From Affinundibacterium seohonense (lineage in GTDB: Bacteria; Pseudomonadota; Gammaproteobacteria; Burkholderiales; Burkholderiaceae_D): a DNA stretch of 64,000 nucleotides. Location of the stretch: assembly GCF_014284305.1 (NCBI RefSeq), contig NZ_JACOFW010000001.1, positions 310,001-374,000 on the forward strand, in the 5' to 3' direction. Below are positions 10,678 to 13,491 of the stretch, in pieces. The notes beneath the pieces were generated by a model. It was not told the DNA's origin and did no database searches. It was given only the letters and a program-made list of their open reading frames with translations. A program made the translations under genes and the position numbers. How positions within the stretch are numbered: position 1 is the first letter of the stretch; each line of letters opens with the position of its first letter.

Positions 10678-12192
10678 ATGCATGCTTCAGTAAATTCCGC
10701 CACTGCATCTGACAGCTGGCAGTGGCGGCGCGCCGCCCTGAGTTTTCTTGCGCTATCTGCAGCAGTTCCGCTGGATGTTTTGGAAGAGCGTGATCAGCAG
10801 GGCACTTATCGTTTCATTCGGGGGCGACATAAATACTATGGCATAGGTTCGCTGGTCATTTTCTTTGCGATTTTTTCTGGCTACGGCATGGGACACATGC
10901 TCGCGACCATGAGCACAATTTCCAGTTGGGGAGCCGTTATTGCTGGTCTAATCTGGGCTGCATTTCAATGGTGTTTAGAACGGCAAATGTTGATCAGTAT
11001 TCGTGCTGATGCTGCATGGTGGAAGAAGTTATTTGGCTTAGGCTGGCGTGGATTGTTAGCCTTGTTATCGGCGTCGACCATGGTATATCCCTTCTTTGTG
11101 GAAAGTAATCGCGCTGAGATTGATGTCAAAGTGGGCGAAATGGCACGGACGCGGTTGATTGATAATATGCAGTCTGCTCAATTAGCTGTTGGCTTGCCAG
11201 CCTTGCGCAATGATGCGACCCGCGTGGAAGGTGCCATTAAACAGGTTGATTTGTTGCTTGCAAGTGATCCGCCTGATTTGGCAGCCTATCGACAACGAGC
11301 CAAAGTGTGCTGGCAAGCTTTTGCTAAAACAGATATTGCCTTGCAACGCCAATTGCGTCCCTTACTGGCGCAGAAAAACATCAACGTTGCAGATGCCTTG
11401 TTAGACGCAAAGATCGACGCACTGAATCAAAAGTTGAATGCAGCCAAAGCACCATGTCAAACAGCCGACGGCGTTGTGATGACAAAGTTATTGGAGTGGA
11501 AACAACAGAAAAACGTCGAGAAAAAAGTGCTGCTGAATGAGCAAAATCAGGTGCAAACTCATATCGGCGAGGCTAAACAAAAAGAGGTCGCGCTGAGCGA
11601 GTCGCAAGAGAAAAAAATTACTCTCGCTGCGCAATCGGGTTTCGCTGCCGATTTTGCCGCCGTGGCCGATTTAGTTCGCAATGATGCGAATCGTCGCTTT
11701 CAATTGATTTGGTGGTTGACCTGGTTTTTTGCGATTGAAATGGTGGCGATTTTGGTGAAGTTTACGTCGACGACTGATGTTGATTTGAAGTTTAATAGCA
11801 TGGAGATGGCAACACAGGATCAGATCAACGCGCAACTGCAAACCCAACAAGAACAAATCGCGACCGGACGTTTGCAAGCGAGTATGCAAGCAAAAGGGGA
11901 ACAAGCGGTGTGGCTGGCGGATGATGGACAAATAGCGCAAGCGCGGGTTCGTTTGGAACAAGAGTTGGAAATCCAATTGCACAGGAAGCTAAAGGAACTC
12001 GATGTCGATTTGCGTTTCAATGTTGAGGCCTTGAAACTGCATTTATTGCAGCTAGAGGCGATTCAGCAATTGACGATGGAGTCGACTATTTTGAACGCTG
12101 GAGGAATTGATCCGCGTGTAGAAAATATGGTACAAGAAACGATCGCGAAAATTGTGACTAGTTTATCCGGCTTGCAGGAACTAAAAGTATAA
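10678..12192 (+). CDS. DUF4407 multi-pass membrane protein
   Basis: This 504-residue protein matches DUF4407 by layout: two N-terminal transmembrane helices (GIGSLVIFFAIFSGYGMGHML, WGAVIAGLIWAAFQW), a third near residue 125-140 (WRGLLALLSASTMVYPFFV), a long periplasmic coiled-coil loop (residues ~145-330), a fourth helix (WWLTWFFAIEMVAILVKF), and a cytoplasmic coiled-coil tail. The function of DUF4407 is not established. Location directly behind the LytS/LytTR pair suggests a sensor partner or regulated effector. Confidence 0.85.
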   Translation: MHASVNSATASDSWQWRRAALSFLALSAAVPLDVLEERDQQGTYRFIRGRHKYYGIGSLVIFFAIFSGYGMGHMLATMSTISSWGAVIAGLIWAAFQWCLERQMLISIRADAAWWKKLFGLGWRGLLALLSASTMVYPFFVESNRAEIDVKVGEMARTRLIDNMQSAQLAVGLPALRNDATRVEGAIKQVDLLLASDPPDLAAYRQRAKVCWQAFAKTDIALQRQLRPLLAQKNINVADALLDAKIDALNQKLNAAKAPCQTADGVVMTKLLEWKQQKNVEKKVLLNEQNQVQTHIGEAKQKEVALSESQEKKITLAAQSGFAADFAAVADLVRNDANRRFQLIWWLTWFFAIEMVAILVKFTSTTDVDLKFNSMEMATQDQINAQLQTQQEQIATGRLQASMQAKGEQAVWLADDGQIAQARVRLEQELEIQLHRKLKELDVDLRFNVEALKLHLLQLEAIQQLTMESTILNAGGIDPRVENMVQETIAKIVTSLSGLQELKV

Positions 12193-12233
12193 ATTCAAGA
12201 GTATAAATTTGAGGAAGCTTGATTGTGCAATTT

Positions 12234-12660
12234 GTCATTCCCGCGAAAGCGGGAATCTAGTGACTTCACCTTGAACTGTGTTGCGACACTAGGTTCTCGT
12301 CTACGCGCACTGCTGTCCGGAATAATATTTGGGATATTAGGGAAATGCTGATGATGCTTGAGTTGCACGATGACGTTGTTTGAATGGACTTGAAAAAGTA
12401 CGATAAGTGGTGGCTGTCAAGGTTCCCTCTCCCGCGAGCGGGAGAGGGCTAGGGTGAGGGTGGTTCAGAAGTTGCATCGTAATTTTTAAGGCGAAGTGGT
12501 GAAGAAATCGCTTTTTAAATTCTTAAATATCGTTAATCGAACCTGAAACTCCCTCATCCCCGTCCCTTCTCCCGCTTGCGGGCGAAGGGAGTATCAAAAT
12601 AAAACTGTCAATAAAATTATTCCGGACAGCAGTGCGTCTACGCGGGAACGACAGAGAAAT
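12234..12660. repeat. Interspersed palindromic repeat split by a MITE
   Basis: The left part (12234-12307) begins GTCATTCCCGCGAAAGCGGG and ends CTCGTCTACGCG; the right part (12635-12655) reads CGTCTACGCGGGAACGACAG. Joined, they give the long imperfect palindrome with 'CATTCCCGC...GCGGGAACGAC' ends seen as an interspersed repeat in many proteobacterial genomes. The two parts are separated by the inserted element at 12308-12634. Confidence 0.7.
12308..12634. mobile_element. MITE with 19-bp terminal inverted repeats
   Basis: A 327-bp element starts CACTGCTGTCCGGAATAAT (12308-12326) and ends with its exact reverse complement (12616-12634). It is bordered by a 10-bp direct repeat, CGTCTACGCG, at 12298-12307 and 12635-12644, the expected target-site duplication. 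It has no coding capacity. Inside are two hairpins: 12425-12448 (perfect 11-bp arms around GA) and 12564-12589 (one mismatch), which themselves look like common REP-type repeats in opposite orientation. A 10-bp duplication fits IS4-type transposition, but no full-length parent is in the window. Confidence 0.82.
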
Positions 12661-12684: not shown

Positions 12685-13491
12685 CTAATTCTTCATAAAT
12701 CCAACCAAAGCATTGAGCACCGCATCAGCCTGTTCACTCATCATCGAATGTCCACAATTTTCTATGATGTGAATTTGCTTGTTGTTGATTGCATTCGACA
12801 GCAAGGCACTGGCTTTGATCGGTGTCATCATATCCTGACGAGCTAATAAAAATAGAGTCGGGCATTGCACTTTTTTCGCCGCTTCTTCGCCATTTAAATA
12901 CGTATTGCAAGCGGTGAAGTCGTTGAAGAAGACTTGATCCGGATTGATAGCAGAAATTCTTTGCATCAAGCGCATACTTCCATTCATCACCGAGAAGCCA
13001 GGTCCGGGGCAAGATGGTTTGTGCGCCATGCTGCTATGGGAAAAAATATTCACCATATCAATCGCCGATTGTTCATCGTGCTGCGCTGAAAATAGCAGTG
13101 CGTCCGAGACTTTCATCGGGAAAGCAGTGCCTAGCAAAGCGAGTCTTTGTATGCGCTCCGGTGCCATGCTGGCTGCTTCTAAAGCGATCAGCGAGCCCAT
13201 ACTGTGACCAGCCACAAAGGCTTGTTGTACGCCGCTGAGTTCGATTAATTCTAATAGCCAAGCCGCCAGTTTTTCTACGCTACTTAACGCTGGACCAACA
13301 CTACGACCGTGTCCGGGCAGATCGACTGCTAACACACTAAAACCATGATGCGCTAAATAACGTGACTGTAAAGCCCAGACGGAATGATCATTTTGCGCAC
13401 CATGAACCAAGATAATGGTCGGCAAATTAGGATTAAAGGCTTTGCCACCCGTGTACGCGTAAACTTCTTTGTTTTGTATCGTTAGGTGCAT
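12685..13491 (-). CDS. Alpha/beta hydrolase
   Basis: This is a 268-residue serine hydrolase of the alpha/beta fold. The catalytic triad is readable: Ser97 in AGHSMGS, Asp220 in LLARQDMMTP, His248 in ENCGHSMM; the oxyanion motif is LVHGAQND at residues 28-35 and DLPGHGRS follows. There is no signal peptide, so it is cytoplasmic. The substrate cannot be assigned. It lies one base downstream of the sulfhydrylase gene on the same strand, so the two are co-transcribed. Confidence 0.92.
   Translation of the reverse strand: MHLTIQNKEVYAYTGGKAFNPNLPTIILVHGAQNDHSVWALQSRYLAHHGFSVLAVDLPGHGRSVGPALSSVEKLAAWLLELIELSGVQQAFVAGHSMGSLIALEAASMAPERIQRLALLGTAFPMKVSDALLFSAQHDEQSAIDMVNIFSHSSMAHKPSCPGPGFSVMNGSMRLMQRISAINPDQVFFNDFTACNTYLNGEEAAKKVQCPTLFLLARQDMMTPIKASALLSNAINNKQIHIIENCGHSMMSEQADAVLNALVGFMKN

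Follow-up and report, generated by a model that had tools for sequence, protein, structure and literature searches.

REP-targeting insertion sequences (IS) have been described in several families, one example being the IS4Sa element ISRm22 (PMC1525189 and PMC2266710, in their available text). All nine copies of ISRm22, an IS4-family element of Sinorhizobium meliloti, are placed in REPs by the same portions of those papers, at the axis of the palindrome. The Y(2)R(3)E(6)K motif of the IS4 family is defined in the available part of PMC2266710, which also describes the IS4Sa subgroup by CA------T ends, a length of 1150-1750 bp and direct repeats of 8-10 bp. For IS1272 of Staphylococcus aureus, which targets inverted-repeat structures, a cruciform attack model that includes loop duplication has been drawn (PMC5678879, available text). 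CGTC-tagged REPs, including dRS3, consist of a CGTC or TGTC tag, an 8-bp stem and a 4- or 5-nt loop and form head-to-head dimers (PMC3733652, available text). A few fortuitous cases aside, CGTC repeats are not linked to transposase genes in the accessible portion of that paper (Di Nocera et al. 2013, PMC3733652).

The window (the whole stretch of DNA that was analysed, 64,000 nucleotides) contains a pair of such REPs, the second unit of which is interrupted by a 327-bp element at 12308-12634. We are highly confident in reading this element as a non-autonomous MITE of an IS4-family (IS4Sa-like) IS, which would have been inserted in the hairpin tip of one unit of a head-to-head CGTC-tagged REP pair by a partner transposase acting in trans with fixed arm cuts. 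The element, to which no strand is assigned, lies between convergent ORFs at 10678-12192 (+) and 12685-13491 (-) and is overlapped by no ORF of 80 aa or more. Its left terminal inverted repeat, CACTGCTGTCCGGAATAAT (12308-12326, + strand), is matched exactly by the right one (12616-12634, - strand), with 19/19 positions identical. When the window was searched at up to 3 mismatches, CACTGCTGTCCGGAATAAT gave only these two matches, both with 0 mismatches (0.01 expected). The 10-bp target site duplication, CGTCTACGCG, is present at 12298-12307 and 12635-12644 (both + strand) and nowhere else in the window (0.08 expected); it corresponds to the hairpin tip, comprising the 4-nt loop and three stem positions per side. 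A previous sequence-only reading had described a 327-bp element with perfect 19-bp terminal inverted repeats, exact 10-bp flanking duplications and a split older palindromic repeat, and each of these features was confirmed.

Two REP-like inverted repeats with asymmetric tails lie inside the element and are mutually inverted. The first (CCCTCTCCCGCGAGCGGGAGAGGG, 12425-12448, + strand) has 11-bp arms at 100%, was predicted to form its own hairpin as single-stranded DNA and belongs to a dispersed repeat of a different type. The second (12563-12590, - strand), with its tail oppositely oriented, has 13-bp arms at 92%; the best predicted single-stranded fold of 12540-12600 in the window copy was a pairing other than this inverted repeat. 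Because of these folds, the earlier description of two opposite REP-like hairpins holds for their orientation and is firm for the first hairpin but weaker for the second. An Rfam search of the window at gathering scores returned no family.

The interrupted repeat consists of GTCATTCCCGC..GCGGGAATC (12234-12257) followed by GGTTCTCGTCTACGCG and GGAACGACA (12292-12307 and 12645-12653), the element lying between the latter two. The first unit (12233-12262, + strand) is a CGTC-1-like REP with the tag variant TGTC, an 8-bp stem ATTCCCGC/GCGGGAAT and a 4-nt GAAA loop. The second, outward-facing unit is inverted relative to the first; its left part (12287-12307, + strand) ends in the first duplication, and the rest of it, a GGAAC arm and GACA, follows the element at 12645-12653 (+ strand). 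In this interrupted unit 6 of 8 stem positions pair (two are T/G), and it begins with G, not A. With CGTC/TGTC tags that face outward, an 8-bp stem, a 4-nt loop and a head-to-head arrangement, the target fits a CGTC-1 REP dimer. The repeat type gave 61 pattern matches in the window's own genome (both strands, at most 2 mismatches, at least one place being counted on both strands), and the reversed control gave 0.

An uninterrupted form of the repeat was found in the same-genus genome G032, where the same flanking genes surround two intact units, the 10-mer position is present once as CGCCTTCGCG and the element is absent. The G032 sequence aligned to bases 7-323 of the 323-base joined, element-less query at 73% identity. 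This empty-site search gave some match in 35 of 39 genomes, and the loci of seven relatives were compared. The orthologous site contains another repeat type in G030 and a remnant at most in G023, and no dimer was recognised at the orthologous sites of G002, G062 and G028. In G008, the site equivalent to window positions 12233-12653 (L221, G008:C389:5300-5800) contains a single hairpin with tags on both sides and no dimer; this arrangement is the expected residue of a precise loss of a bridging element or of a simple deletion inside a dimer. As single-stranded DNA, the G032 dimer was predicted to fold into one long stem in which the units are paired together (-28.9 kcal/mol, z -7.4 vs shuffles). 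Because of this predicted stem, "hairpin tip" here means the tip of each unit's own palindrome, and the form that the transposase would see need not be that of separate hairpins.

A DNA search of the window's own genome (G000) with the element gave at least 63 matches (40 of 71 candidate places scored). Four are full length, namely the window copy (contig C1), copies on C87 and C2 at 98% and a copy on C79 at 78%, and all four lie in the same hairpin type. Direct repeats of CGTCTACGCG, TGCGTAGGCA and CGCCTTCGCG flank the three young copies, and the 10-mers flanking the older C79 copy differ at one base. The window copy differs from the other two young copies at 7 and 6 of 327 bases while those two are 1 apart, so that the insertion, described earlier as recent, is recent in a relative sense. 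The remaining 59 matches are partial and were left out of target placement; they are mostly short and mainly cover the inner hairpins, a separate dispersed repeat, with some longer diverged copies. In a DNA search of plasmids only the inner hairpin was matched, in 8 records (7 Pantoea, 1 Variovorax). The element is thus shorter than 500 bp, has terminal inverted repeats and a target duplication, contains no transposase and is present in several dispersed copies, as is typical of a MITE.

Ends with at most 1 mismatch to those of the element were found in 12 of 60 genomes searched (its own included), all of one genus, and two of these genomes carry an autonomous element with matching ends. In G005 there are two IS copies of 1308 bp and a third that an inserted gene extends to 2685 bp, and G031 contains one copy of 1312 bp; relative to the MITE, one IS end is identical and the other differs at 1/19. 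The partner transposases (~390 aa, DUF4372 and DDE domain) are 73% identical to each other. Pfam models PF01609 (DDE_Tnp_1) and PF14294 (DUF4372) both scored above cut-off, the NCBIfam IS4 model NF033592 gave 211 and 212 bits against a cut-off of 115, and Y293, R296, E300 and K307 of the Y(2)R(3)E(6)K motif are invariant in the two proteins. On these sequence grounds the partner IS belongs to the IS4 family. Its CACTGCTGT... ends and length of 1308-1312 bp both lie within the IS4Sa definition, and by ends and length it would fit that subgroup. At one G005 locus (L071, G005:C1:2976157-2979841) the IS is interrupted by an ORF (1532-2443) that looks by eye like an integrase-type transposase, forming an IS-in-IS-in-REP nest.

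The insertion proposed by the sequence-only reading is supported by further copies with the same ends in its own genome and in relatives, by a transposase gene between such ends in two relatives, and by the G032 site, which keeps the repeat uninterrupted. The earlier finding stands; as a MITE the element is ordinary, and it is the target specificity that adds interest. From one sequence it could not have been seen that the place of insertion is no accident, the family targeting the tip of hairpins of this class.

Searching the window's own assembly with the partner protein gave no transposase match, and when both transposases were used as queries against six genomes no match was found in G000, G004, G023 or G026. 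Four contig edges of the own genome (C86, C94, C96 and C112) carry related IS end fragments that abut half-hairpins. The C86 and C96 fragments encode a transposase start, MFRITNFQEIMK, and those of C94 and C112 a transposase-like C-terminus; the latter, right-end fragments match the right end of the MITE over 29 terminal bases at 97%, and 1-3 positions separate the IS ends of the own genome from those of the MITE. These contigs break off 120-140 bp into the autonomous IS, so that IS copies appear to be hidden in assembly breaks of G000. A truncated DDE transposase at C98:1-666 was also considered as the partner and was dropped, as the partner protein matches nothing in the own assembly; no matching inverted end was present in the stretch read at that candidate. 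G026, a 6.7-Mb genome in 2 contigs with 12 two-ended MITE copies (L076-L086, L227), has no match to either transposase, and its MITEs therefore look orphaned.

Insertion sites were scored at 88 loci with both ends and flanks present, comprising 64 transposase relatives and 24 same-genus copies. The relatives were drawn from the best 80 of 109 in named genomes, 16 of which were dropped (13 for a missing end, 3 for a flank of <26 bases). L073 was excluded because it and L090 are one element; the count also omits loci at which fewer than two ends were found (L087, L089, L228-L230, L233-L239) and the isolated ends at contig edges of the own genome. L141 was recoded after a first call on the outer element (9-bp repeat). 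A direct repeat with at most 1 mismatch was found at 66 of the 88 sites; 51 of these repeats are 10 bp long, and 14 of 11 bp and 1 of 12 bp exceed the published IS4Sa range. The 66 sites come from 26 genomes by our own grouping and are not independent, 18 of them being from one Olavius endosymbiont.

At 61 of the 66 sites the best palindrome axis ran through the midpoint of the direct repeat, ties being counted for the centre (L095, L158, L159, L075 and L081 were off-axis). Pairing of at least 75% at the central axis was observed at 60/66 sites, compared with 8.6% of 3300 random windows scored at the best of 13 axes. All of the outer five arm pairs were matched in 46 sites, four in 15, three in 3 and two in 2. 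With the right arm fixed at the duplication edge, the best complementary left 5-bp arm was one duplication length away in 60 of 66 sites, with 4 ties and 2 that differ. The majority of arms match CGTC-tagged REPs, with their tag, 8-bp stem and loop of 4 or 5 nt; there the duplication covers the loop and three stem positions per side. Many Pseudomonas sites have a different hairpin with an 11-bp tip. CC ahead of the cut sites and GG behind them are nearly constant, and the arms covary (attcc/ggaat, atgcc/ggcat, gctcc/ggagc, atccc/gggat). By record title the relatives come from Pseudomonas, from species of the orders Burkholderiales, Nitrosomonadales and Xanthomonadales, and from others. As judged from these sites, elements of the IS clade and their MITEs enter CGTC-tagged REP hairpins, or hairpins like them, at the tip. 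Full-length relatives in many bacteria usually sit in hairpin tips too, and hairpins of this kind therefore seem to be landing sites for the element family. At L106, L104 and L149 the flanks look by eye like inverted repeats past the hairpin, suggesting larger palindromes around some dimers.

Movement by cut-and-paste is usual for the IS4 family and is proposed for this element. The partner transposase would act in trans on the 19-bp ends and would cut the target at fixed arm positions, after ATTCC and before GGAAT or at covarying equivalents. The stretch duplicated would then be the hairpin tip, which measures 10 bp where the loop has 4 nt and, in one genome, 11 bp where it has 5 nt.

Within this explanation, the probability that the primary sequence of the arms is the target falls only a little short of even. 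TTCC/GGAA-like half-sites in duplex DNA would then be recognized by a transposase dimer and the hairpin structure would be irrelevant, which is compatible with both the MITE and the target findings. The near-constant CC and GG at the cut sites favor recognition of this kind, as do the conserved target arms of ISRm22 and some IS4 elements (PMC2266710, available text), whereas the covarying manner in which the arms differ argues against it; because REP stems covary anyway, the covariation does not decide between sequence and structure. It is very unlikely that the hairpin association reflects survival rather than targeting, with intergenic insertions being tolerated and REPs being common there. 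The window copy does lie between two convergent ORFs and REPs are often in such places (PMC1525189, available text), but against survival stand a near-constant base position in the hairpin, an axis at the duplication centre in 61/66 sites and the excess of paired sites over random windows. Least probable of all is a RAYT-mobilised or other REP-derived composite with 10-mers that are palindrome halves rather than an insertion duplication, since the REP-like inverted repeats of a dispersed family inside the element and the other REP around it are set against 10-mers that are direct and not inverted, a single 10-mer copy at the G032 empty site, and ends that match an element with a DDE transposase.

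Duplication length was compared with loop length at the G026 MITE sites, where loops were read by eye. Three units with a 5-nt loop have 11-bp duplications (L077, L078, L080) and six with a 4-nt loop have 10-bp duplications (L076, L079, L082, L084, L085, L086); the tenth site, L081, has 11 bp and no good palindrome. Of the 289-bp copies, L077 shares 96% and L085 93% identity with L076, so the element itself does not explain 10 vs 11 bp. Counter to a length rule, a Nitrosovibrio site (L095) combines a 5-nt-loop unit with a 10-bp duplication. A stagger that follows loop length is thus suggestive and not established. For the difference of 10 vs 11 bp between most Pseudomonas elements and others, the transposase rather than the loop may be the cause.

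No direct repeat was found at 22 of the 88 sites. Twelve of these are tag/tag (two halves with their tags outside), 1 is tail/tail, 4 show tail/tag, the normal order, and 5 could not be assigned on one or both sides; L139, L147 and L161, all among the 22, have weak end matches (11-12 of 16) and possibly misplaced ends, and L092 has two candidate right ends. Both sides could be classified at 17 of the 22 sites and at 36 of the 66 with a duplication, the latter comprising 16 tail/tag, 16 tag/tail, 2 tag/tag and 2 tail/tail. The tag/tag contrast, 12/22 vs 2/66, gave Fisher p values of 2e-7 for all sites and 2e-6 for sites classified on both sides in a post hoc test, the tag and tail assignments (one mismatch allowed) having been made after the sites had been viewed.

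Recombination between copies at different loci should produce tag/tag and tail/tail in equal numbers; 12 vs 1 were observed (p 0.0017). Head-to-head dimers would give tag/tag if the element joins both units, whether through a deletion that extends into the partner unit or through a single-step attack on the two, and in the long-stem form of the dimer the two cut regions face each other. Exact reverse-complement 10-mers were read by eye in 3 of the 12 tag/tag sites (L096, L104, L149). The tags alone do not prove that both halves originate from one dimer, and at the one site examined, the G000 ortholog of the G023 site, no ancestral dimer was seen. The tag/tag sites look as if the element had bridged a hairpin dimer. 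It is conceivable, although we consider it rather doubtful, that the transposase reads the hairpin geometrically, setting each cut from its own arm so that the stagger stretches with the loop (10, 11, perhaps 12 bp), and that with head-to-head units able to pair as a long stem the two ends attack different units, the middle of the dimer being replaced without a duplication.

CGTC-tagged REPs, described without an associated transposase in the available text of PMC3733652, would, together with similar hairpins, receive insertions of an IS4-type clade and of its MITEs at an almost invariant position. If true, genomes would possess intergenic docking sites, and a DDE transposase whose repeated target is sharply delimited would be available to researchers. 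Structure-guided transposition could be tested directly through the bridging class and the possible length rule.

Among the described systems, IS1272 belongs to a different IS family from the present element. It also differs in that it replaces the stem-loop and makes no target duplication (PMC5678879, available text). The CGTC-tagged REPs of PMC3733652 are the target here, but no transposase link is reported in the accessible part of that paper. ISRm22 resembles the present clade as an IS4Sa element inserted in REPs at the palindrome axis; it differs in its reported 6-bp repeats and S. meliloti REP target, and neither a MITE nor a length rule is described in the available text of its reports. 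The closest named match among the 40 plasmid records listed (of 340), at 43% identity, is ISRm16, an IS4-like element of Sinorhizobium meliloti with CAGGGCTGTCCGGGGAAA ends and a length of 1299 bp. Two of the three S. meliloti copies examined lie in a hairpin with a direct repeat, as in the present clade, and the third has none. In contrast to the present element, ISRm16 has a 9-bp repeat placed half a base off the palindrome axis (read by eye), and it enters a hairpin of the CCCTCTCC type, similar to the ones that the present MITE contains. The inner repeats of the MITE (12425-12448, 12563-12590) also resemble the Sinorhizobium hairpins (CACCCTAACCCTCTCC...) hit by ISRm16-like elements (L240, L241); the kind of site that a relative's transposase targets is present in this MITE. 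In Rhizobium, a remoter relative (L243, 39% identity) is flanked by a 9-bp repeat at a place that does not read as a hairpin; no ISRel1 ends were found. Given the ISRm22 and ISRm16 precedents, the third ISRm16 copy and L243, REP targeting already has examples in the IS4Sa subgroup, and some relatives may depart from it. No paper describing the present MITE or the targeting of CGTC REPs by IS4 elements was found in the open-access library searched. As far as that search shows, the MITE family is new, as is the finding that a broad IS4-type clade targets CGTC REPs; the near-constant position at the tip, a stagger that possibly depends on the loop, and the bridging class are likewise new.
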